This document shows, one piece after another, positions 1,589-24,625 of a stretch of 26,744 nt of DNA. Origin of the DNA: a virus; IMG/VR virus record IMGVR_UViG_3300042542_001271, positions 1-26,744 of that record; one strand, written 5' to 3'. The notes under the pieces were generated by a model. The model ran no database searches. It saw only the letters and a program-made list of their open reading frames with translations, and was not told the origin of the DNA. Each line of letters begins with the position of its first letter. Position 1 is the stretch's first letter. The translations under genes and the position numbers were made by a program.

Positions 1589-1944
1589 CCGAGCAACAGA
1601 TCCAGCAGCACATCCGCCTTGCCCTTAGCCGCGGCCCGGTGCGCCTGTACCGCAACAACACCGGCACGCTGCGCGACCAGCATGGCCGCCCGGTGCAGTT
1701 TGGCCTGGCGGTTGGCAGCGCAGACCTGATCGGCTGGACCACGCGCACGATCACACCGGACATGGTGGGTCAGCAGGTGGCGGTGTTCACCAGCATCGAG
1801 GTGAAGAGCGCCACCGGCCGATTGCGACCGGAGCAGCGGCAATGGCTGGAGGCGGTGCAGGCAGCAGGCGGCATCGCCGGCGTCGCGCGCAGCGTTGAGG
1901 ATGCGGCACGGTTGACCATGGCTGACCACGGTGGTATAGTGTGA
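1585..1944 (+). CDS. VRR-NUC domain nuclease
   Basis: This is a 119-residue PD-(D/E)XK fold nuclease of the VRR-NUC family. Catalytic residues are visible as Asp47 in G-S-A-D-L-I-G and Glu72/Lys74 in the E-V-K triad, followed by the family hallmark region RPEQRQWLEAVQAAGG. Phage VRR-NUC proteins are single-domain nucleases thought to act on branched or damaged DNA, usually next to SF2 helicases, as here. I chose the TTG at 1585, which overlaps the TGA of the HNH gene and gives the natural N terminus M-T-E-Q-Q-I-Q. A longer TTG start at 1501 would only translate the shadow of the HNH gene. The unusual start may reflect insertion of the HNH gene, which could have replaced the original initiation region. 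The family is very likely; the start is uncertain. Confidence 0.85.
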   Translation: MTEQQIQQHIRLALSRGPVRLYRNNTGTLRDQHGRPVQFGLAVGSADLIGWTTRTITPDMVGQQVAVFTSIEVKSATGRLRPEQRQWLEAVQAAGGIAGVARSVEDAARLTMADHGGIV

Positions 1945-6152: not shown

Positions 6153-6675
6153 CCTCATCCAGCAAGGAATGGTCAAGAACCATCAGCCGGAACTGATCAA
6201 TCCCGCCAGCTTGGACCTGCGGTTGGGCGACCTGATCATGCTGGAGTCGGTGGAATCCCACCAGATGATTCCGCTGTCAATCAAGGAGTACACCGCTGAG
6301 CACCCGTATCAGTTGGTACCAGGGCAGTTCATTTTGGCGCAGACAATCGAGACATTCTTCATGCCTGAGGATGTGGCCGGATTGTTCTTCCTTAAGTCCA
6401 GCCGCGCCCGTGAAGGCTACGAGAACTTGCACGCCGGCTATGCAGATCCCGGCTGGCATGGCAGCGCGCTAACGCTGGAGCTGAAAAATGCCCGCCAGTT
6501 GCAACCGCTGCCGATCTATCCAAGGCTCAAGATCGGTCAAATGGTGTTCTTTCGAATGAGCCAGCGCCCAGCGCTCAGCTACGCGCAAGTGGGACATTAC
6601 AACAACGACAAGCTAGTCGCAGCTTCCAAGCAGTTCCTCGGCCGCGGCCAAGTGCCACGACTCGACGCTGCATGA
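6124..6675 (+). CDS. dcd: dCTP deaminase (dUTPase superfamily)
   Basis: A 183-residue product from ATG 6124, which follows GGAG and is preferred to a TTG at 6109. Family motifs are in order: P-A-S-L-D-L-R-L-G-D (27-36), P-G-Q-F-I-L-A-Q-T (66-74), K-S-S-R-A-R-E-G (91-98), Y-A-D-P-G-W-H-G (106-113) and L-E-L-K-N (118-122) with the catalytic glutamate Glu119. The enzyme converts dCTP to dUTP, a step toward dTTP. Some relatives also hydrolyse dUTP, and the sequence alone does not settle whether this one is bifunctional. It is a cytoplasmic homotrimer in the family. Phages use it to raise the thymidylate supply, fitting the replication genes upstream. Its last 63 bases overlap the 3' end of a candidate antisense gene. 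Confidence 0.92.
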   Translation: MILCDTEIHDLIQQGMVKNHQPELINPASLDLRLGDLIMLESVESHQMIPLSIKEYTAEHPYQLVPGQFILAQTIETFFMPEDVAGLFFLKSSRAREGYENLHAGYADPGWHGSALTLELKNARQLQPLPIYPRLKIGQMVFFRMSQRPALSYAQVGHYNNDKLVAASKQFLGRGQVPRLDAA

Positions 6676-6855
6676 ACGCATAGCTTCACGCACCAGCCAG
6701 TTGATTTGCGATCGCTGGCTGGCCTCTTGCTCTGCCAGCAACAGGGCATATTCCAACAAAGCGTTCCAATCCTGCTGCTGATGTAGCTTGCGCAACATGC
6801 TGGCATTGGCAGCGCCGTGAAATTGTGCTTCTATGGTATGAACCAATGGATTCAT
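6613..6855 (-). CDS. Candidate antisense gene between dcd and the sigma factor, 80 aa
   Basis: The 181 bases between the deaminase stop and the sigma ATG hold no plus-strand gene, but on the minus strand they encode an 80-residue protein. Starts at 6855 or 6858 are possible; I use 6855 (M-N-P-L-V-H-T-I-E-A-Q-F-H). The predicted protein is helical with regular Leu/Ala spacing (L-R-K-L-H-Q-Q-Q-D-W-N-A-L-L-E-Y-A-L-L-L) and a second helix INWLVREAMRS. That is unlike a random shadow frame and resembles a compact protein-binding domain. Its start codon overlaps the sigma start head to head, and its end runs into the end of dcd. It lies against the direction of the whole early block. A sigma regulator (for example an anti-sigma factor) is an attractive idea but is inference only. 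Confidence 0.55.
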   Translation of the reverse strand: MNPLVHTIEAQFHGAANASMLRKLHQQQDWNALLEYALLLAEQEASQRSQINWLVREAMRSCSVESWHLAAAEELLGSCD

Positions 6856-6856
6856 C

Positions 6857-7747
6857 ATGTCTGACAGTATCAAGGATTATCTCAACAGTATCGCCAAATA
6901 TCCGTTGTTGACACCTGAGCAGGAGATACAACTTGGCAGGCGGGTAGCACGGCTTAAAGAATTGCAACAACTGGAAAGGCCATTAACAAAAGATGAGCAG
7001 CGCGAGGTGCGCAGTGGCGAACGTGCTCGGCAGCGCTTTATTCAGTCCAACCTGCAACTTGTCGTACATATCGCCCGCAAGTACAACAAACGCCAGAACA
7101 AGACGCTCGAGTTCATGGATCTGATCCAAGAAGGCAACATCGGCCTGTCACGCGCTGTGGACCTGTTCGATCCCACCCGCGGCTACAAGTTCTCGACCTA
7201 CGCCTACTGGTGGATCCGCCAGGGCATCACCAGGGCTCTAATCATTTATGACGGCATAATCAGGCTGCCGATTGGTGTGCACGAGATGCTGTACAAGGTC
7301 AACCGCACCATTCAAGATCTCGGTCATGAGCTAGGCCACGCGCCAAATACCAGTCAGGTGGCAGAGCATCTGGACATGGACCCTAAAGATTTATCCATAC
7401 TGCTGCGGCAGGGTTATCGCGTAACCAGCCTTGACCAGCACATCACAAACTCTGAAAGCCACACCATTGCAGAAACAATTGCAGACCCCGCATACAATCA
7501 AGAGGATGCCGCAACGCATCAAGATATACAAAATATGATGGAATACTTCGCAAAATACCTTGATAAGACAACGCAAACAGTGCTTAAAGCACGCATGATT
7601 TGCCAGCCAATTACTTGGTCAGAACTGGAACGCACGACCGGCATTAGCAAGACACGATTGCACACCATTGAGCAACGTGGCATTGCCCGCCTCCGTATGC
7701 TGATGAGCAATCCGCTGGCAGGCACGCCTCTTGGAACCAACGATTGA
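6857..7747 (+). CDS. Phage-encoded sigma-70-family factor with altered region 4
   Basis: A 296-residue product. Region 1.2 is residues 4-30 (SIKDYLNSIAKYPLLTPEQE). Regions 2.1-2.4 span 57-127 with F-M-D-L-I-Q-E-G-N-I-G-L, F-D-P-T-R-G-Y-K-F-S-T-Y-A-Y-W-W-I-R-Q-G-I-T-R, keeping the Trp pair and the Gln/Thr that read the -10 element. Region 3 is about 135-200, and region 4 about 226-283. It is closest in style to cyanobacterial group 2 factors and lacks region 1.1. After W-W-I-R-Q-G-I-T-R-A-L the usual A-D-Q-x-R-T-I-R is replaced by I-I-Y-D-G-I-I-R. In region 4.2 the canonical S-R-E-R-V-R-Q-I-E reads S-K-T-R-L-H-T-I-E, so the main -35 contacts are changed. It should direct host RNA polymerase to phage promoters. 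It is the last convincing gene of the plus block and faces the late block. Confidence 0.93.
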   Translation: MSDSIKDYLNSIAKYPLLTPEQEIQLGRRVARLKELQQLERPLTKDEQREVRSGERARQRFIQSNLQLVVHIARKYNKRQNKTLEFMDLIQEGNIGLSRAVDLFDPTRGYKFSTYAYWWIRQGITRALIIYDGIIRLPIGVHEMLYKVNRTIQDLGHELGHAPNTSQVAEHLDMDPKDLSILLRQGYRVTSLDQHITNSESHTIAETIADPAYNQEDAATHQDIQNMMEYFAKYLDKTTQTVLKARMICQPITWSELERTTGISKTRLHTIEQRGIARLRMLMSNPLAGTPLGTND

Positions 7748-7904
7748 AAAATACGGCGATGTATGGCGCGTTTGTCTAAATGGCATGTGCAAAGATCATG
7801 TGCAAGATTGGCAAGCATTTATTTTTTATCATCAGATGTTGAATCAATCAACCAGTCCTGAATCTTTAGCACGCGATCAACAGTCCATGACTCCTGACGG
7901 CTAA
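7731..7904 (+). CDS. Candidate 57-residue gene in the convergent junction (antisense to the HNH gene)
   Basis: An open frame follows the stop at 7704-7706. A TTG at 7731, inside the sigma 3' end, gives M-E-P-T-I-E-K-Y-G-D-V-W-R-V-C-L-N-G, then H-V-Q-D-W-Q-A-F-I-F-Y-H-Q-M-L. This reads like a compact alpha/beta domain with several Trp and aromatic residues, and from memory resembles a small protein seen in cyanophages. The last third overlaps the end of the minus-strand HNH gene (7819) and is less protein-like. No strong Shine-Dalgarno is visible. It is either a true last gene of the plus operon or a fossil fragment. Confidence 0.4.
   Translation: MEPTIEKYGDVWRVCLNGMCKDHVQDWQAFIFYHQMLNQSTSPESLARDQQSMTPDG
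7748..7818. other. Convergent junction of the early (+) and late (-) blocks
   Basis: These 71 bases separate the sigma stop from the HNH stop. Transcripts meet here, so a bidirectional terminator would be expected. I see only an A/T-rich run (TTTATTTTTTATC, from 7818) and no convincing stem, so termination may be Rho-dependent or the transcripts may overlap. Confidence 0.5.
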
Positions 7905-8139
7905 ACCACTTTCGCCATTCCTCGCTGCCTTTGCGGCGGTTGCATTCGCGGCAGGCTGGCACCAGATTGCTAGCAACTGTGGCGCCACCTTTATGGCGTG
8001 GTTTGACGTGGTCTAAGGTATCAGCCGGCGCACTGCAGTACGCGCATTCACGACCCCACGCCTCAAAGATTTGCTGTCTAAATTGATGCTTTGCACTGCG
8101 TTTTGATACGAGGTTAGAGCCATCAATCGAGTGATCCAC
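7819..8139 (-). CDS. HNH endonuclease (four-cysteine type)
   Basis: From GTG 8139 the product is 106 residues. The core is C-A-Y-C, then L-D-H-V-K-P-R-H-K-G-G, then N-L-V-P-A-C-R-E-C-N-R-R-K-G-S, the classic HNH (beta-beta-alpha metal) fold with two CxxC pairs for a structural zinc. The open frame continues to an ATG at 8190, but that extension only repeats the neighbouring gene in another frame (68-base overlap), so I prefer the GTG, which overlaps by 17 bases. Such small HNH proteins may help DNA packaging as terminase partners or act as nicking enzymes. Here it is the last gene of the late block, far from any terminase in the window. Nuclease family is certain, role open. Confidence 0.85.
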   Translation of the reverse strand: MDHSIDGSNLVSKRSAKHQFRQQIFEAWGRECAYCSAPADTLDHVKPRHKGGATVASNLVPACRECNRRKGSEEWRKWFSRQESWTVDRVLKIQDWLIDSTSDDKK

Positions 8140-8305
8140 GCAGTTCCGGGATGGGTAGCACCTGAACCGATAGGCCCAGGATGTGATCATTAGACGGCGC
8201 TAACTCAGTGAGTCGCGCAATAAAGTCATCTGATACCGCTTCCGGGTCGTCGCTGTCGCTTTCCACCACGATGGTGTACTCGATCTCAAGGACGTATTGC
8301 CTCAT
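8123..8305 (-). CDS. Small hypothetical protein, 60 aa
   Basis: ATG at 8305 overlaps the metallophosphoesterase stop (ATGA), and its stop overlaps the start of the HNH gene. The sequence begins with a strand-like M-R-Q-Y-V-L-E-I-E-Y-T-I-V-V-E-S, then an acidic D-S-D-D-P-E patch, a helix and another strand (I-L-G-L-S-V-Q-V-L-P). That suggests a small alpha/beta fold. No family recognised. Position in a tight overlap chain supports coding. Confidence 0.65.
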   Translation of the reverse strand: MRQYVLEIEYTIVVESDSDDPEAVSDDFIARLTELAPSNDHILGLSVQVLPIPELRGSLD

Positions 8306-9153: not shown

Positions 9154-9178
9154 GCCGTTTGTAGCGGCTTACACGGCA
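9153..9178 (-). promoter_or_regulatory. Hairpin over the phosphoesterase start codon (candidate)
   Basis: TGCCGT and ACGGCA pair across 14 bases, and the loop contains GTA/TAC that can add three more pairs. On the minus strand the 3' arm ends on the A of the ATG at 9153, so folding could hide the initiation site, which also lacks a clear Shine-Dalgarno. It could couple phosphoesterase translation to the upstream endolysin. Confidence 0.35.
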
Positions 9179-9180
9179 GT

Positions 9181-10248
9181 CTAATAGTCCCAGCGCGCGC
9201 GTGGCCGGCCAGCGCGGATGCCTAGGTGGATGAATCCCTTCGGCGCGCCATAACCGACGCTGTACGGCCACTCACGATCCACCCATGCTTGCACCTTGTT
9301 GATGTCAGCGCCATCGACGTAGAAGTCAACAGCTCCTACATTGGGCGCGTCGTAAAGATGCTCACTGCCTGATGCGCCACCGACGGCGCGGTTGATTGCA
9401 GCCGGCCTGTACCCGCTGGTGATCGTGATGAACTTGCCGCCAAATGCCGTGCGCACGCGCTCCAAGAATGCTACTAGCTCTGCTGCAGTATCAATTTGAT
9501 GCTGCGCCACAAAACGCCGCGCTGGATCGCCTAGGGCAAACTCACCTAGGGTGAAATGCGCCGACAGCTTGGTGCTGAACGGATCACTGGGTTTCACCTT
9601 GTACGGCAAGGCTTGCGCAGCTTCGCCCCACAGTCGCCCTTCTGCTTGCCGGCGGCGCAGCAACCCAGCCTCGACACTGGTGCCAGGGTTGCGGTAGAGC
9701 AACATCGCTTCTGGGACTGCATCCCAGTCCTTTTCTTTTAGCCGCTTGCTAATCGTTTCAAAACCAGTGGTGCCGTAGAAATCGCTGCCGAGGTTATAGG
9801 CAAAGCTAATCAAGGCAGACTGCTTGTCGCCATTCATGGCATTCCAGAACGGCACCGTAACGCGCAACTTGTTGACAATCCGCTCAATCTCAAGCTCCAG
9901 CAGCTTGCTGGCATCAATGACTGTGAGCTTGTCGCCGCGCTGCACCTTGCGGCCGTCGCTGTACCTAGTGGTGCCATAGCCGATGGTCCAGGGATCGCCG
10001 CCGCTAAGCGGATCTGGGTAGGCCGACAGGTGGCACCCTTCAAACTCTTTGATCAGCTTTGTCGCTGCCTCATAGCTGTGCAGTTTACCGTCTTGGCTCC
10101 AAGTCTGAAACCAAGGCTGACTCCTGTCAAACAGTTCAGGCGCAACCTTTAATAGCTCGGCTTCTAGTTCAGAGATTGCCGCCTGCTGATGCGGCAACCC
10201 CTTCCAGTAGCGAAACAGGTTGCTGGGTTTGATTGGTGATTTACTCAC
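9181..10248 (-). CDS. Two-domain endolysin: GH24 lysozyme plus M15 D-Ala/L-Ala-type peptidase
   Basis: A 355-residue product. Residues about 60-208 form a phage GH24 lysozyme. E-F-E70-G, Y-P-D79 and T88-I-G-Y-G match the E-D-T catalytic triad of T4 lysozyme, with a G-G-D-P-W insertion before the threonine, and R-R-R-Q-A-E-G-R-L-W closes the domain. Residues about 230-355 form an M15 zinc peptidase: S-G-Y-R (278-281), S-E-H297 and V-D308 with the final ligand H341 in F-I-H-L-G. The enzyme would cut both glycan strands and peptide cross-links of peptidoglycan. There is no signal peptide, so it depends on a holin; candidate one-TM proteins lie just upstream. The N-terminal 55 residues are a helical region of unknown role. 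Confidence 0.9.
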   Translation of the reverse strand: MSKSPIKPSNLFRYWKGLPHQQAAISELEAELLKVAPELFDRSQPWFQTWSQDGKLHSYEAATKLIKEFEGCHLSAYPDPLSGGDPWTIGYGTTRYSDGRKVQRGDKLTVIDASKLLELEIERIVNKLRVTVPFWNAMNGDKQSALISFAYNLGSDFYGTTGFETISKRLKEKDWDAVPEAMLLYRNPGTSVEAGLLRRRQAEGRLWGEAAQALPYKVKPSDPFSTKLSAHFTLGEFALGDPARRFVAQHQIDTAAELVAFLERVRTAFGGKFITITSGYRPAAINRAVGGASGSEHLYDAPNVGAVDFYVDGADINKVQAWVDREWPYSVGYGAPKGFIHLGIRAGRPRARWDY

Positions 10249-10394: not shown

Positions 10395-10643
10395 CTAATG
10401 ATGTGGGCGTGCCTCTAGCGTAGCCACCCGCTGCTCGACGCCATTGAGCCGGTTAAATGTCTCTTGGCGATCGCTGCGGATGTCGGTATGGAGCACTTCG
10501 AGTTGGGTGGCGATGTGCTCCACTGCGGATGTCAGGCGTATTACCGCCTCTCGGGCTTCGTCGCTGCGGCGGCTGAAACCCATAGCGCCCATGGCTGCCA
10601 CGGATATTGATGCGCCAGCGATGGCGGCAATCACTTCGATCAT
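10395..10643 (-). CDS. Holin-like protein: N-terminal membrane segment plus coiled coil
   Basis: An 82-residue protein. Residues about 3-22 are hydrophobic (I-A-A-I-A-G-A-S-I-S-V-A-A-M-G-A-M-G). The rest is a charged helix with heptad spacing (VIRLTSAVEHIATQLEVL, then LNGVEQRVATLE). This resembles XhlA/hemolysin-type phage proteins, which act with holins, with the order reversed (TM first). It stands two genes before the endolysin. Its stop is two bases from the next ATG, so the two are read together. A holin or lysis-timing role is inferred from position and topology; a structural role for the coiled coil cannot be excluded. Confidence 0.7.
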   Translation of the reverse strand: MIEVIAAIAGASISVAAMGAMGFSRRSDEAREAVIRLTSAVEHIATQLEVLHTDIRSDRQETFNRLNGVEQRVATLEARPHH

Positions 10644-11124: not shown

Positions 11125-14100
11125 TTACCAAGAAGAAATGGCTGTGCGTCGCCACGTATTTGTGGCAGTGCAAACGTAAATATAGTTGGCATCCCAGCAG
11201 ATTTCACCGGCGGTGCCAGTGGCGGTTGCTGATGCTGGAGTACGGGCAGTGCGCAAGCGAACGGTGTCAGAGTTTACATCTAACAGCGTGGTAGGACTAC
11301 TAATCCCAATCCCCACGCGACCTGATCCATCGACACAAAACTGAGTATCCCAAGTAGTTCCACCAGCAAATTGCCTAATAGCAAAAGTTCGGCTATCGGT
11401 ATTAACACTATTTGTTGCACCCGAGGAAAGGTTTCCACTTCCTTTATCAATAGAAAACCCCCAAAAAGACCTGATATGACAGTCACCAGCGTTATTTTGA
11501 GCTATGCCATTTACACCTATTCCTATAGATGTTGAATTAATTTGCGCAGCAGTTAACCCAGGGCTAGCGATGGCTGCTTCCACACCATTACTTACGCTTG
11601 AAGTATCTGGACCGGAGACAACTTGAAGCAGTTTTGTGGGGCTACTCGTCCCAATCCCCACGTTGCCGGAGCTGTCGATGCGCATGGCTTCAGTGCCGCC
11701 TTCAACAAAGGCCAGCGTGTCTGCGCCAGGGCTGTAGATGCCGGTGTTGGTATCGCCGGTAAAGGTGATGGTCGGCGCGCCAGCGGTGCCGAGTGCAGCG
11801 CTGAATAGGCCAGTTGTGGCGACTGTTTGGCTGCCAAAGTCGGGGTTGATTTTGGTGCCGGCAATCGCCGCAGATGCGTTGACATCGGCATTGACAATGC
11901 TGGCGTTACCGCTGACCAGTACAGTGCCGGTTTGGTTTGGCAGTGTAATTGTGCGGTCAGCCGTTGGATCGGCAACTGTCAGCGTGGTTTCGTTGCCATC
12001 GCTGGAGCTGCCTTCAAACACCAAGGTGCCTGCGCTGCCGATCAGCAACTCACCAGTAACAGTGCCACCGGCTGCAGGTAGCGCCAGTGCAGCCAAGTCG
12101 TAGGCGCTCTTGACTGCCGTGGGAGTAGCGGCGAGAACGCTGCTAGTAGTGCTGGTGCTGTCGCTGAGTTGGACGATGCCATCGACGCTGGTAGTGGCAG
12201 CGCGAAGAGTTAATGCTGGTGTAGTAGTGGCCGTAGCAACAGTCAGTGCAGCAGTGCTGCTGGTGACGGTGGTGACAGTGCCAACAAAATCAGCGCCGTA
12301 TTCCAAGCCAGTAGCAGTGGCGCTATTGGCGCGTAGTACTTGGCCATTAGTGCCGACCGGTAGCTTGGTAAGCGTGGTTGCCGCACTTGCAACTAGCAGG
12401 TCGCCTTTGGTGTAGCTAGCTACATTGGTACCACCTCGCGCTACAGCCAGTGTGCCGCTAGTGATGTTGTCGGCGTTGCGGCATTCAGTGCTAACTTCTT
12501 GGATTGCAGTTTGAACGTTAGTAGCTGCAATATCACCAGCCGGCACAAAGCTAACATTAGATGCTGCAATAGCACCGGCGCCTGCTGATACGTCAATTTC
12601 TACCCATTGCGGGAGAGTAGTGCTATACACCGACAGCAGCAAGTCGGGTGGAGCTAGCGTCCCCGCAGGCGCATTGCCGGAGGTGATTGTGCCGCCTTCG
12701 CTGACGACAAAGTAATGCTTGTTGTTCCCTAGCGTTGGTGCAGGTAGTGCGGCATTAACTACAAAGCCAGCAGCAACGCCTTCAGGCGTAAGACTTTGTA
12801 TTTTGCCAACGCCGGCTGGGGTACTGGCATCAAACGTGCCGGCTAGAACAATTTGCCCGGCTGAGATGCCGATTGGCACCCAGACGTTACCGTCCCACAT
12901 GTAGAACGAGCGGTCTAGTGAGTTCAGGTGTAGTTGACCTGTAAACGTTGCCGCCGGGAACTCCGCACCTATTGATGCTGTTGAGTAGTCAGCCATTTTG
13001 GCAATGGTGACCGCTGCATCAGCCAACCGAGCAGTTGGCAGTGCGCCTGTGGTGATCTTGGCAGCATCTAGGCTAGGAATATCCGAGGCTTCCAGTAGCT
13101 GGCCCTGACTGACGTGGCCTTGTGCGTCCACCACCAATCGGGTGTAGGTGCCAGGAGTGACGGTGTTGCTGTGGTTCAAGACGCCAGCATTAACAAGAAG
13201 GCCCGTACCTGGCTGCACAATGCCCTTGCTGCTAGCTGTAGCGTCTGGCAGGTCCGCAGGCGTTAATGCGCGGAATGTAGGTGCAGCGTTAACGCCACTG
13301 GTGGGGCCTACGAAAACCGCGTTTGCCGCCTGCGTGTCAAGCGTGGTTGTGATATTAGCGGTGTGATTATCGGGGTAGGCAACTGCAAAGTTCAGCGGTG
13401 TGGTGTCACTGAAGTTGATGGCATTGAGCGCAGCCTGCCTAATCCAAGCGCTACCGTTCCAGACGTATTTGACGCTGGTATTGGTGTCAAACCAAAGCTG
13501 GCCTTCATAGGCGCCGCTGCCCACGGGGGTGCCAGCTTGCACAATTGTGGTGCTATCGGCAGCGAGTTTGGCGGCGGTGATGGCGCCATCAAGTACCTTG
13601 CTGGTGGTGACGGCGTTAGTGGCGATGGCCGCTTCACCGAGGCCGGCCGCATCAATCTTGTCGGTGGTGATAGCACCAGTGGCTAGTTTGGCGTTTGTAA
13701 TAGCAGAGTCAGCTAGCTTGCCGGTGGTGACATTTAGGTCTGTCAACGCACTGGTGGTTACAGCGTCTACCGCCAGCTTGGCGCTTGTAACACTGGCATT
13801 GCTGAGTTTTGCGCCAGGTACGCTGCCATCGGCAAGGTTAAGCTTGGCGTAAGTAAGGCTGGCGTCGGCAACCTTGGTAACCGTTACAGCAGCAGTGCCG
13901 ATCTTGCTTTCGGTGACTGCACCAGTGGCTAGTTTTGCCTCCGTAACATTGGCGTCGACGATGGCGGCGGTATCAACCGAGTTGCTTGCGAGTTCAGCGG
14001 CTGTCACCGCATCAGCAGCAATCTTGGCGGTAGTAACGGACAGCGCCGCAAGTTTGCCAGTAGTAACGGCAAGGTCTTGAATTTTGGCGGTGGTAACGGA

Positions 14101-14592: not shown

Positions 14593-14617
14593 GTTGGAGT
14601 CACCTTATGCGATCAGT

Positions 14618-15493
14618 TTAATCCTCAACTTCCGTTAGCAGGAAGGCAAGGTTGTCTTGGTTGAGCGCAATGCGGTCATCGTCTTGTTTGAGGAGGTAAC
14701 CAGAGGGGCGCCCAACCAATAGTTTAATTTCGCCAGTGGTGACGAAATCAATGCTGCAAGTAATTAACTCCGATGCTGATACTTGCAAGCCCGAACGAGT
14801 TACCATTGCGGTGAACTCGTAGAATATATCTAACTGGCTAGGGTCATTATCGCTGTCAGTAATGGACAGCAGGCAGTCAAATTCGCTACCGATATCAACG
14901 CGGTTAATGAGTTGCAATGCCAGCAGCGGGGTTTCTTTGACGCCCGATGTTTGATTATTAAAAATGCAGTCAATTTTGCCAGAACCGCTAATCAAACCAG
15001 CGCTGTACATGCGCTTAAACTTATCGCTTAATGCAGTAGTTTCCAGTGCTTCGCGGTCGGTATTAAACTCATAAGAAGTGACATCGCCTAGCACGTTGGG
15101 ACTGATGTCACGCACATGCACTTGCACGGGCAAGGGACCACCTCCAAAGTTTTGGATGGTGTATTCTTGTGCCCTGTCATTATTAACTGCTGACTGAAAA
15201 CTAGGAAAGAACCTAATGCCGCCAGCAGCATTGACATTTATATACGCACTAAAGGTGCGAAAGGTTACGCCTTCGCCATCCACCCATGAGTTGACAGGCA
15301 GAAATACCAGCCCGCGTGCATCGCTTGTAGATACTGTTATTTTATCGCCGGTCAGCAAATTATCAATAGCACCTTCAATACCAACGCGGTTAAGCACAGG
15401 TATTGTGTCCGCATCTTTAATGATGGAGGTTAGTACATTTTCGGAGTTACGACGCAGGCGCACATTGCCTACGTTGCCGAGAAAATACGTCAC
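14618..15493 (-). CDS. Virion structural protein of the tail region, 291 aa
   Basis: It starts at ATG 15493, overlapping the stop of the tube-like gene upstream. The protein is beta-rich with many Thr, Ser and Asp residues and no membrane segment or enzyme motif. It opens with M-T-Y-F-L-G-N-V-G-N-V-R-L-R-R-N and ends L-N-Q-D-N-L-A-F-L-L-T-E-V-E-D. Its place between the tube-like protein and the fibre, in an all-tail operon, suggests a virion part such as a tip or fibre-attachment protein. No known family recognised. Confidence 0.75.
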   Translation of the reverse strand: MTYFLGNVGNVRLRRNSENVLTSIIKDADTIPVLNRVGIEGAIDNLLTGDKITVSTSDARGLVFLPVNSWVDGEGVTFRTFSAYINVNAAGGIRFFPSFQSAVNNDRAQEYTIQNFGGGPLPVQVHVRDISPNVLGDVTSYEFNTDREALETTALSDKFKRMYSAGLISGSGKIDCIFNNQTSGVKETPLLALQLINRVDIGSEFDCLLSITDSDNDPSQLDIFYEFTAMVTRSGLQVSASELITCSIDFVTTGEIKLLVGRPSGYLLKQDDDRIALNQDNLAFLLTEVED

Positions 15494-15975: not shown

Positions 15976-16005
15976 TGCGTTGCGCCAGTAGTCTCTGCTG
16001 TCAGT

Positions 16006-19000
16006 TTACTCTGCTGCGCCGTCTATGGTAAATAGTCCGGCGACGTAGGTGTCAAGTCCTTGTGCAATAAACGAGTTGCCGTTGGTGTCACACGGATGCT
16101 CGACAGCGCGGATGGTGGTTTCGCCTTCCTCTTCCATGGTTACTTCGGTGACACGGAAGACGCGCTTGCTGCGGACTGCTTGCCCTAGCACAAACAACTG
16201 GCCCGACTGTGGGCTGAGGCTGGCTGCTACTCCGCCTGTGACGCTGATACCCGTGAATGAACGGGTGCCGTCGCTGCTGCCGTAGGTCAGCACATTGTAA
16301 GTACCGTTTGGGATGGTGTTGGCGATCGGTACATTCAACACGCCGCCGCTTTCGATGCGGCCGGTGTAAATGCCGTCCCACTGGTTGTTGCTGGTTTCGA
16401 CGTACACATAGCTGCCGGGCATTACAAAAATATCGGTTGGGAAAGTCTTAAACTCGACGGCGCGACGGTTGAAACGGCGCACTTGACACAGGTACTTACC
16501 CAGCAGGATGGCTTGGGCGCGGGTGGTAACAAACTGCGAAATGTCCAAGCTTTCGCGGATGGCATTGGCTTCCTGGGTGTCCGTGCGCTTAATTTCTACG
16601 CTGTTGTTGCGCGGGAACACGCCGTTACGCTCCACGTCGCGGTAGATCAGGGTGACGATCACGTCTTGAACGCTGGCGCCATAGTCGATAAACTCCTCTT
16701 TGAAGCTGTCATCAAGGATGTTGCCTTGGTTAAACAGCGCCGTGATTGAGATGGCACGAGTGATAGCTCCTGTTGATTTGACATAAGGCAACGCCGGTAC
16801 CAAAGTTTCTTTGCCGCCAATCTTGCCAAGCTCTAGCAGACTGAACGGTGCTACTTGCACCCAAAATTCGCGCCATGGGCGGCCATCAGCGATTACGCCA
16901 TCCATAAACAGGCTGTTGCGCTGGCAGTACCGCTTGCTTTGCGCCAGTTGCATTACGTCAACAGAATGCAAGCTGGCGTAGCGACCGATGCCGTTGGTGC
17001 CATCCAACACTGTGTCTAGAAAGATGTCAGGAGCAAATGATGTGGAATTGCTCGGGGCGCTGGCGGCAAAAGCCGCCACCGTAGCATCGTTGACCGCCCC
17101 GGTTGCCTCGTTGCCAAAATAATCCAAACTGGTAGGCAGCAAGCGCACTCGCTTGCCTTCAGTGATATAGGCACTGACGCTGCGTAGGTCTTGCGTACCT
17201 GAGCCTGACACTACATGTAGGGCCAGTGTGGACAAGCCACGGTACAAGTTGGGGCTGTAGTTGCTCCATGGTTCTATGAGCTGTTCAGTTACGGCAGTAA
17301 TTTGAACTTCCGTAGATGAATCGAAGGAGAAGGTGGTTTGCGAAAATGCGTCGTAATTGAACAGGTCAAATTCGGTGGTGTTAAGCGGAGACTTGTTAAA
17401 TGGGGGGTAGTCACCACGGGAACCATCTAGGTAGATGGAACCGTTGAAGTAGACTTCTAGACCAGCGTTCCCGACAAAGTCGGTGCTTAGTGTGACAAGC
17501 GGCGCCGTGGTGTTGAGGTAACAGTAACCGCGTGTATAGAAGGTGCGGATCTCAGTAAAGGTATCGACGACCGCTTCAAGTTTGACTTCGATAAAGCGAG
17601 CAACGTTCCGAGAAATAAGCTTAATGTAGGTAAAAACGTTTTGTTCGTTAAAACCACGGCAGCAAAAAATGTAAGGCAATCGAGCATAATCTCCGCTATT
17701 ATCAAAGCGATACCAGAGAGCAAACATACTGGTACGTGCTTTGGCGCCGTTGTCGGAGGCGCTGTGGCCATAGTTGACTTGATCTTTGCCGTAGACATTG
17801 GCGCGGCCGCTTAGCCTGCGATATGCCTGAAAACGAAGTGCTATGTCAAGGACGTTGCATTTGGTGACGCTCGCGTAAGCGGCTTCTTCGATGCGAGCTA
17901 AACCCTTGACATGGAATGTTTCGGGGCCACCTTGAGAACCAAGGCTGTTGATTTGATTCTGGATATTGTCGTTTTCAGCAAGATAAACCGCAATAGTATT
18001 GTTACGACTGTCTATAGCGCCTTGATGATAACCTCTTTCCTCGTCGGTTAAGTACCAGTAATTTGATGACAAAGTATACTGATCATTTTGGTTCTCTTCT
18101 TGAAGTCTGGCAATTTCGTTGTTGTTGTTGTTGATCTGATTACGCAGCGCGTTGGCTTGATCCCCTTCTTGCGCCCAGTGTGCAAAGCCGTAACGCGCTC
18201 GGGGAAGTTTGCCTACGCGGATGCACTCCAGCGTCGCTGTGAGATTGCCCTCTTCAATGCCATTGGCGCTTCCGCCATAGGACGCGGACACCACGCGGAA
18301 TAATGCTGAACCTGCTTTGAAGATGGCGCCATTGTCAATCTGTGAGGCAGCAGCCCGTAAGGCATCTTGCCGGGCGATGCCAGCGGTGTCGCTAGACGCC
18401 AGGTTTTCTGTTGTGTTGTTGATTACCAGCGTCCATCGGTTACCCACGGGCACCATGGGGCGGTTGTCACCATCCGGCCAGTAGTCTCCGTTTTGCGATT
18501 GGTAATAGGTGTCTACGCGGCGGCGCACAGTATTTCCGGCTTCGTTGAGGATCAACACGTCGGCGTTAATTGGAATAAAACCGGTTACGCCAACCGTGTT
18601 AGCCGTAGTCGGAGAGAATGATTGGCTGAAGCCTTCAGCAGCGCCAGGGAGGCCGTTTAGTTTTGCTGTGGTGTCATTCGGCGTGGTAATTGTTGGATCG
18701 TTGGCGTCACCGCGAATGAGATGGTTGTATCGAGTGGGGCCGTCAGCGTTGTAATACTGCCAGACATTGCTAAGCACCAAATCCTTAGCGGGGAACTGTC
18801 CCAAGGCGGTGCGTTCAGGGTCGATGCGAGCAATGTTGGACGCCCCGAGCGTCATCATCAGCCGCATGAATTGATTGTTGCCGAAACTCAAGATTGCAGA
18901 CCACAGCAATAGCGTGGATAGCCGCACACCCCCGTTACTATTTTGAGCGGTGTTGGTGTAGACCAGCGGCACCGTATCGCCGTAGATAGCAAGATCTTGC

Positions 19001-19311
19001 GATCCGTTAAATCCCAGTCGGGGCGATAACTTTTGGTCGCGTGTTTGCTCTGTTCCTTTCTGCTCTTGCTGCTGCTGCTGCTCCGGCAGGCTGGGTTTAG
19101 GCATCAGCAATACAGATGCCACTTGAAAAAGAATGCCTACGATAGTAAGAACTAATGCTGTGATGCCGAGGTCGTTTCGCGCATCCAAGGCGGTTCCTTC
19201 TTTTACATCTTCGTAGATATGCTGCTGCGCTATAAAGTCAAGATAGTCTTCCTTGCTAACGCCTAGTGCATCAATCAAGTCATATTCGTAGGGCAGCAGT
19301 TTGCGGGTCAT
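16006..19311 (-). CDS. Tail tip protein, J/host-specificity-like, with an N-terminal membrane-type hairpin
   Basis: A 1101-residue product, start ATG 19311, overlapping the NlpC-like gene by 4 bases. Residues about 48-72 are a hydrophobic segment (I-T-A-L-V-L-T-I-V-G-I-L-F-Q-V-A-S-V-L-L-M), followed by P-K-P-S-L-P-E and a Gln-rich spacer. That pattern is like lambda gpI joined in front of gpJ. The large middle is beta-rich. A coiled-coil stretch with Asn repeats (N-N-N-N-N-E-I-A-R-L-Q-E-E-N) lies at about residues 385-410. The C-terminal part contains hub and fibronectin-like motifs (R-R-A-V-E-F-K-T-F-P-T-D, G-S-Y-V-Y-V-E). It should form the tip that holds the tape measure and contacts the receptor. 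Family is inferred from size, gene order and the N-terminal pattern. Confidence 0.8.
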   Translation of the reverse strand: MTRKLLPYEYDLIDALGVSKEDYLDFIAQQHIYEDVKEGTALDARNDLGITALVLTIVGILFQVASVLLMPKPSLPEQQQQQEQKGTEQTRDQKLSPRLGFNGSQDLAIYGDTVPLVYTNTAQNSNGGVRLSTLLLWSAILSFGNNQFMRLMMTLGASNIARIDPERTALGQFPAKDLVLSNVWQYYNADGPTRYNHLIRGDANDPTITTPNDTTAKLNGLPGAAEGFSQSFSPTTANTVGVTGFIPINADVLILNEAGNTVRRRVDTYYQSQNGDYWPDGDNRPMVPVGNRWTLVINNTTENLASSDTAGIARQDALRAAASQIDNGAIFKAGSALFRVVSASYGGSANGIEEGNLTATLECIRVGKLPRARYGFAHWAQEGDQANALRNQINNNNNEIARLQEENQNDQYTLSSNYWYLTDEERGYHQGAIDSRNNTIAVYLAENDNIQNQINSLGSQGGPETFHVKGLARIEEAAYASVTKCNVLDIALRFQAYRRLSGRANVYGKDQVNYGHSASDNGAKARTSMFALWYRFDNSGDYARLPYIFCCRGFNEQNVFTYIKLISRNVARFIEVKLEAVVDTFTEIRTFYTRGYCYLNTTAPLVTLSTDFVGNAGLEVYFNGSIYLDGSRGDYPPFNKSPLNTTEFDLFNYDAFSQTTFSFDSSTEVQITAVTEQLIEPWSNYSPNLYRGLSTLALHVVSGSGTQDLRSVSAYITEGKRVRLLPTSLDYFGNEATGAVNDATVAAFAASAPSNSTSFAPDIFLDTVLDGTNGIGRYASLHSVDVMQLAQSKRYCQRNSLFMDGVIADGRPWREFWVQVAPFSLLELGKIGGKETLVPALPYVKSTGAITRAISITALFNQGNILDDSFKEEFIDYGASVQDVIVTLIYRDVERNGVFPRNNSVEIKRTDTQEANAIRESLDISQFVTTRAQAILLGKYLCQVRRFNRRAVEFKTFPTDIFVMPGSYVYVETSNNQWDGIYTGRIESGGVLNVPIANTIPNGTYNVLTYGSSDGTRSFTGISVTGGVAASLSPQSGQLFVLGQAVRSKRVFRVTEVTMEEEGETTIRAVEHPCDTNGNSFIAQGLDTYVAGLFTIDGAAE

Positions 19312-24178: not shown

Positions 24179-24202
24179 GTTATGGACGGTAGTTGGCTGG
24201 CG

Positions 24203-24625
24203 TCAGTCTACATATGCTTCGAACGTCATGGTCAATTGAGTCTGGTAATACGGTTCAGGTGATGCTGGTGTTACTTGCGCAGGGCCTGATGCGGCATCAA
24301 AAATAATGCCAGACACTGTGCGCCGGTCGAACAGATCCTTCACACGCTCTGCAATGGTGAAGTTTGCACCAGCGCCAGCGCCGACAGGCGTAAACACGTT
24401 TACCACAAGCGTGCCGTTTTGCCGGTTAAAGCCCGAACTGCCGATAGGACGCAGTGTTGCGTAAGCATTATCGCCAAAGCGGATGAATGCCTGCAGCCAA
24501 GGCGTGTTATTGGGCGGACTGAACGGGACGTTCTGATAACTGACCGGATATGCCGGTGCAATGGCCATTTCGGTGGCGATGCGACCTTCAATGGCAGCGC
24601 GGACGTCGTTGTAGGTGCTGCTCAT
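24203..24625 (-). CDS. Tail completion/terminator protein (DUF4128-like, gpU position)
   Basis: A 140-residue protein. Pattern Y-N-D-V-R-A-A-I-E-G-R-I-A-T-E-M at the start, P-W-L-Q-A-F-I-R-F-G in the middle, and F-D-A-A-S-G-P-A-Q-V plus Q-T-Q-L-T-M-T-F-E-A at the end match DUF4128-type tail proteins that cap the tube. It is between the gp10-like gene and the tube gene, the position of lambda gpU. It overlaps the upstream gene by 4 bases. Confidence 0.8.
   Translation of the reverse strand: MSSTYNDVRAAIEGRIATEMAIAPAYPVSYQNVPFSPPNNTPWLQAFIRFGDNAYATLRPIGSSGFNRQNGTLVVNVFTPVGAGAGANFTIAERVKDLFDRRTVSGIIFDAASGPAQVTPASPEPYYQTQLTMTFEAYVD

Follow-up and report, generated by a model that had tools for sequence, protein, structure and literature searches.

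In the virus examined here and its relatives, a phage sigma factor with a rewritten region 4 was found alongside a promoter-like late-strand box, TA[AG]ACT(G)-N5-A, which lies at late gene junctions and has no -35 counterpart; this box is the new observation of the present analysis, and it is likely linked to the rewritten sigma helix. We hold with moderate confidence that host polymerase would act early through a two-box promoter, and that the phage sigma factor would then take the core enzyme to the late genes by the -10 box alone. A preliminary description of this DNA had proposed that late promoters carry either a new -35 box or none, and this proposal was supported in part: a late box without -35 information or a TGn element favors none, and a new -35 box found no support.

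The window, i.e., the whole stretch of DNA that was analyzed (26,744 bases), comes from an IMG/VR virus record, and the host of the virus is likely a cyanobacterium. The plus strand encodes exonuclease VIII, a RecT-like protein, SSB, dCTP deaminase, and a gene like helicase A47 of S-LBS1, up to the sigma gene. The minus strand carries a long gene block that includes an endolysin, with an HNH gene (7819-8190) at the block end, and was taken for the late block because its genes match late genes of phages that include KBS-S-2A and S-H1. The sigma gene proved to have the coordinates and strand first assigned to it (ATG at 6857, stop at 7747, plus strand, 296 aa). It had also been called the last convincing early gene; it does stand at the early/late border, but because a conserved 57-codon ORF starts inside its 3' end on the same strand, it is not quite the final early-strand gene. 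The features of the sigma gene are as follows, with residues of the form E585 numbered on E. coli K-12 RpoD.

6857-7747, plus strand: phage sigma-70-family factor, 296 aa (Pfam, PHROG 351, TIGR02997)
7241-7264, plus strand: IIYDGIIR, in place of the block that follows region 2.4 in E. coli (444-451; alignment)
7559-7708, plus strand: region 4, residues 235-284, with F563-G564-I565 missing (alignment and model)
7646-7675, plus strand: start of the recognition helix, SKTRLHTIEQ, residues 264-273 (E585T, R588H, Q589T; alignment)
7731-7904, plus strand: conserved small ORF of 57 codons starting inside the sigma 3' end (21 of 23 sequences, i.e., the window and 20 of 22 relatives)

The phage sigma factor encoded here is of the cyanobacterial group 2 type. 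Its best families were PHROG 351 (E 7.9e-61) and the NCBIfam model TIGR02997 of cyanobacterial RpoD-like factors, where its 239.6 bits lie under the cut-off of 384.5, so that it counts as related and not as a filed member. A Pfam search matched sigma-70 regions 1.2, 2, and 3, all above cut-off, and did not match region 4; despite this, region 4 was alignable to that of E. coli. An AlphaFold2 model (mean pLDDT 76, pTM 0.47) placed region 4 helices at residues 237-247, 254-261, and 265-284, and region 4 is thus still predicted to form a helix-turn-helix. A Foldseek search with the model returned ordinary sigma factors.

In the alignment, E. coli T583, R584, E585, R586, I587, R588, Q589, I590, and E591 correspond to S264, K265, T266, R267, L268, H269, T270, I271, and E272 of the window protein. 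The changes E585T, R588H, and Q589T are therefore real, as is the replacement of the block after region 2.4, where E. coli ADQARTIR (444-451) has become IIYDGIIR (residues 129-136); R448 and H455 are each replaced by G, and R451 and E458 are retained. Where a canonical -35 reader of the sigma-70 family has the equivalents of E585, R588, and Q589, the window protein has T, H, and T. According to the available excerpt of one study, E585Q and R588H each make recognition at -33 less specific in E. coli, R584C has this effect at -31, and the TGn element is where H455 and E458 act (PMC2613000); R588H, one of the changes that relax reading at -33, is present in the window protein.

These changes extend to a whole clade, which was tabulated as 53 distinct proteins: besides the window protein there were 54 distinct ones from IMG/VR, of which two cut by contig ends (L012, L013) were dropped, leaving 52. 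E585 was retained in none of the 53, R588 in none, and Q589 in two, and 51 of the 53 had none of the three. R448 and H455 were lost throughout and E458 was kept throughout. In addition to what had been described before, F563-G564-I565 of region 4.1 were absent from all 53 proteins. The earlier statement that regions 1.2 and 2 are well kept was borne out by the Pfam matches and by the -10 readers, since Y425, Y430, W433, W434, and Q437 were invariant in 53 of 53; T440 was T in 39, G in 10, and S in 4. Likewise invariant were R593, R597, R599, and the W at 573.

Host and other phage proteins were aligned for comparison. Cyanobacterial group 2-type factors resemble the window protein in having TIGR02997 as the best general match and in carrying regions 1.2, 2, and 3, with 35-44% identity. 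The 36 host factors (36 of 80 host loci were aligned and 44 left out) did not restore the -35 residues: unlike the window protein, all 36 retain R584, R588, and R448, 35 have H at 455, 32 have Q at 589, and position 585 holds E in 32 and D in the other four. Among 72 distinct proteins from 75 of 95 new phage loci, R448 was retained in 71 and all three of E585, R588, and Q589 in 35; nine had none of the three, indicating that the -35 readers have changed in other lineages too. In a quick tree of 166 rows, the 53 clade proteins formed one branch (SH-aLRT 100). As judged from these alignments, loss of the -35 readers is a trait of the clade, beyond chance.

Selection on region 4 was assessed from dN/dS over 93 close pairs, which was 0.022 for region 2, 0.051 for region 4.1, 0.179 for region 4.2 (residues 259-280), and 0.105 for residues 264-273. 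Region 4.2 therefore evolves faster than region 2, yet is under purifying selection; the recognition helix varies between sub-clades and is constrained within each.

The late strand was surveyed in 15 records, the window and 14 of 16 relatives (the other two being G002, omitted for a gene layout like that of G001, and G014). TAAACTG occurred 27 times on the late strand and once on the early strand, TAGACTG 21 times and twice, and the bare hexamer TARACT 85 and 28 times. TAAACT and TAGACT were the top two enriched hexamers in 151 de-duplicated late junction zones (17 copies with 3.3 expected, and 15 with 2.7 expected, respectively). Copies of the box numbered 37 in 14.1 kb of late junctions and 18 in 330 kb of late gene interiors, compared with none in 6.5 kb of early junctions and one in 123 kb of early interiors; the scarcity on the early strand may reflect avoidance or codon use. 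The junction test somewhat favors TAA and TAG words, because such words cannot occur in frame inside genes, and its controls are the zero copies at early junctions and the rank among all hexamers. TACACTG was likewise late-biased in the 15 records (23 vs 3), and TARACT may thus be too narrow a definition of the late box. As an early lead, word counts over pooled gaps had given mostly codon-like words, with GTAAACTG as the sole lead. In the open-access literature, to which the search was confined (subscription journals lay outside its scope), no description of a TARACT late motif was recognized.

A strict junction test was passed by 47 of the 85 late-strand TARACT sites and failed by 38, including three in the window (14726, 11276, and 10087). 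In 16 of the 47 strict sites, the TAR of the box is the called stop codon of the preceding gene; stop-codon context alone gave a weak enrichment (11 of 191 late and none of 105 early; p 0.009), and the junction test is the stronger one. After thinning to 19 sites, G directly followed the box in 15, and A stood seven places past the box in 14 (p 6.8e-6), or in 11 of the 16 without an ATG there (p 1.9e-4); these p-values are too optimistic, because the thinned sites retain some orthologous pairs (e.g., window 9183 and G006 24244). According to the accessible text of one source, the most frequent distance from the -10 element to the start is 6 bp (PMC8407463), which fits the predicted start A after the late box. 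TGn was found at none of the 19 thinned sites. Furthermore, with spacers of 14-19 the same sites gave no -35 signal, the best six-column block being matched by 644 of 1000 random sets, and the mean best TTGACA match upstream was 3.0 of 6, the same as at 121 control sites. In relatives G001, G003, G007, and G010, TARACT was also seen exactly 6 nt ahead of an ATG at late sites, an arrangement that would give leaderless late mRNAs.

Within the window itself, TARACTG occurred five times on the late and never on the early strand, and bare TARACT was not strand-biased (7 late vs 6 early). Four boxes were strict late sites, and three of them have A at the predicted start:

24198-24210, minus strand: TAGACTGACGCCA, a candidate late promoter ahead of gene 24178-23420, with its box at 24210-24205 and its predicted start at 24198
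15996-16008, minus strand: TAAACTGACAGCA, a candidate late promoter ahead of gene 15975-15490, with its box (16008-16003) overlapping the stop codon of gene 16006-19311 and its predicted start at 15996
14608-14620, minus strand: TAAACTGATCGCA, a candidate late promoter ahead of gene 14592-11125, with its box (14620-14615) overlapping the stop codon of gene 14618-15493 and its predicted start at 14608
9171-9183, minus strand: TAGACTGCCGTGT, a candidate late promoter ahead of gene 9153-8302, with its box (9183-9178) overlapping the endolysin stop codon and its predicted start at 9171, where T stands in place of A

A different arrangement was found on the early strand, where TTGACC-16/17-TAnnnT was present in 16 of 16 records, G002 included. 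The window copy is of host type:

1912-1940, plus strand: candidate early promoter TTGACC-17-TATAGT

Host RNA polymerase would transcribe the early genes from this two-box promoter. The phage sigma factor, as one early product, would bring host core polymerase to the late genes, where it would read the -10 box only and not a -35 box, and region 4 would mainly dock on the polymerase at the beta flap or bind a phage partner, with no base reading at -35. A single short box can overlap the stop codon of the preceding gene and so suits a tightly packed late block. On one reading, single-box late promoters came first, and region 4 may then have been free to lose its -35 readers. A scan with a promoter consensus over 10 kb near the sigma gene found nothing above chance (1 found, 2.3 expected).

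The early/late divergence of relatives, which lies outside the window, speaks against a general absence of -35 boxes from the late strand. There, two overlapping back-to-back promoters with TTG-type -35 boxes were recognized by eye, and the late-facing one, which precedes a small ORF of no recognized kind, is of host-type appearance. The divergent promoters of relatives overlap a dyad (CTTGACA...TGTCAAG in some; e.g., G001 at about 12911-13124 after reversal), which is perhaps an operator; a general divergent-dyad pattern fitted only 4 of 16 records, and no general claim is made for it.

A less probable, though serious, alternative is that the TARACTG promoters are real, that the host holoenzyme reads them, possibly aided by a phage activator, and that the phage sigma factor serves another purpose, e.g., host genes or other phage promoters. 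Two phages speak for it: KBS-S-2A has a canonical helix (RERVRQ) yet carries TARACTG at five late sites and three early ones (A in three of the five late), and S-H1 has four late sites and no early one, all four with A at the start position, in a record where no sigma match was found. The S-H1 record ends where the early and late blocks would meet, and the window's endolysin, 10395-10643, dCTP deaminase, and sigma proteins gave no hit in it, so its missing sigma factor may be an artefact. Host promoters cut both ways, as S. elongatus promoters are given in the available excerpt of PMC3219970 as having a -10 box of Ta-aaT, A at +1, and no clear -35 motif: this general form suits reading by the host holoenzyme, but the -10 box itself differs from TARACT. 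Nor is TARACT a usual upstream word in hosts, with a single copy in the 17.2 kb of gene-upstream sequence from 34 host loci. Finally, in non-redundant downstream flanks, TARACTG was found at 30 late and 2 early sites in the window's clade (30 flanks; A in 12 of 30 late copies) and at 7 late and 2 early sites in KBS-like phages (5 flanks; A in 1 of 7), but it had no strand bias in other sigma-bearing phages (8 late vs 6 early in 34 flanks). The KBS-S-2A and S-H1 sites, the host promoters without a -35 motif, and the TTG-type divergence promoter of relatives keep late reading by the phage sigma factor through the -10 box short of full support.

It is quite unlikely that a new -35 box, varying from sub-clade to sub-clade and missed when sites were pooled, is what the rewritten helix reads. 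Such a box would accord with the sub-clade pattern of helix variation described above, and it could have been obscured by the pooling of sub-clades and by the 18 of 47 strict sites that come from near relatives; moreover, TTGACC or TTTACC stands 18-19 nt ahead of two of the four window sites. However, the remaining two window sites have no such common box, many boxes lie inside the coding sequence of the preceding gene, and in the thinned set no upstream column stood out and the TTGACA match was no better than at control sites. Least probable of all is that region 4 is merely decaying, with no role left, once -35 reading became superfluous: dN/dS of region 4.2 is about eight times that of region 2, but these values are far under 1, region 4.1 is at 0.051, R593, R597, R599, and the W at 573 do not vary in the clade, and the helix-turn-helix is retained in the model.

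The sigma factors of KBS-S-2A (AGH57642.1), S-CBS1 (ADP06632.1), and S-CBS3 (ADF42487.1) are of the same size as the window protein and have 43-48% identity to it over the matched part, and the sigma genes of KBS-S-2A, S-CBS1, and S-LBS1 lie at the meeting point of early and late genes, as in the window (nearly so in S-CBS3, where four small genes follow). In contrast to the window protein, those of KBS-S-2A, S-CBS1, and S-CBS3 retain R-E-x-x-R-Q in region 4.2, R448, and a loop of the FGL/YGL type; the S-LBS1 factor, like that of the window, departs from the canonical helix. TARACT is nearly absent from both strands of S-CBS1, S-CBS3, and S-LBS1 (L205, L206, and L207; 0, 0, and 1 copies, respectively).

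The window protein probably acts in the manner of the single-element phage sigma factors (T4 gp55, phiEco32 gp36), but it retains region 4, the absence of which marks that class, and it is not a member. To our knowledge, no gp33-like flap partner has been recognized for it. The late promoter of phiEco32 gp36 is described, in the available excerpt of PMC8948821, as the single element tAATGTAtA without a -35 box, with the start 6-8 bp after it; gp36 differs in having another box and no region 4 homology, whereas the window protein retains the domain. In T4, gp55, gp33, and gp45 likewise serve late genes through a -10-like element only, but gp55 is described as having only a domain homologous to sigma region 2, with the beta flap occupied by gp33 (PMC7892883, available excerpt). 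SaPh711_gp47 of phage 7-11 is, like the window protein, a phage sigma factor with a region 4 homologue, and it serves late genes; its promoters, however, are given as bipartite, GTAAtg-(16)-aCTA, in the same excerpt of PMC8948821.

The sigma gene is also flanked by a conserved gene on the opposite strand:

6613-6855, minus strand: conserved antisense gene of 80 aa, with one base between its start codon and that of the sigma gene

This gene was retained in 77 of 78 loci with enough flank. Its dN/dS in frame was 0.10, no stop was found in 33 thinned sequences, variation fell mostly on the third codon position (0.109, 0.080, and 0.304), and 37 positions were invariant across 28 aligned proteins. 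Searches of the protein against Pfam, PHROG, and phage records gave no match; its model was all-helical and weak (mean pLDDT 72), and Foldseek returned nothing below E 1. No TARACT was found on the minus strand between 9183 and the antisense gene. At the sigma/HNH junction, where the 57-codon ORF overlaps the HNH gene on the opposite strand, a strong hairpin with a T run was not found in 20 of 21 sequences (the exception, L027, is on the plus strand), and in a looser terminator scan minus-strand matches inside the sigma gene were not above chance (5 in the stretch, 3.2 expected). With no TARACT after 9183 and no strong terminator at this junction, late antisense read-through could express the 80-aa gene. 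A feedback loop is unlikely, if conceivable, in which TARACTG late transcripts would cross the HNH end (7819) and run antisense to sigma into the 80-aa gene, with the antisense RNA, with or without the protein, shutting down or retuning the sigma factor behind those transcripts; in such a loop the small helical protein would perhaps be an anti-sigma factor or a flap-binding partner.

Two gaps of near-constant length, one before the presumed tape-measure gene and one after sigma, were dropped as regulatory candidates because their alignments (G002 included) look like coding sequence. Before the presumed tape-measure gene of relatives (e.g., G001 37564-37742 after reversal), conserved reading continues past the A-run GCAAAAAAA, and we take this to resemble the frameshift of tail assembly proteins.

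Phage sigma factors that use single-element promoters have been described among those lacking region 4; in the present case, a full group 2-type factor seems to drop -35 reading and keep the domain. The canonical helix of KBS-S-2A and S-CBS1 and the altered helix of this clade thereby form a natural series for a role of region 4 without DNA reading. The phages of the clade also gain a predicted late promoter, whose candidates can be listed record by record. Taken together, a sigma factor that would read the -10 box only and late genes with a single box suggest a simple switch from early to late transcription.
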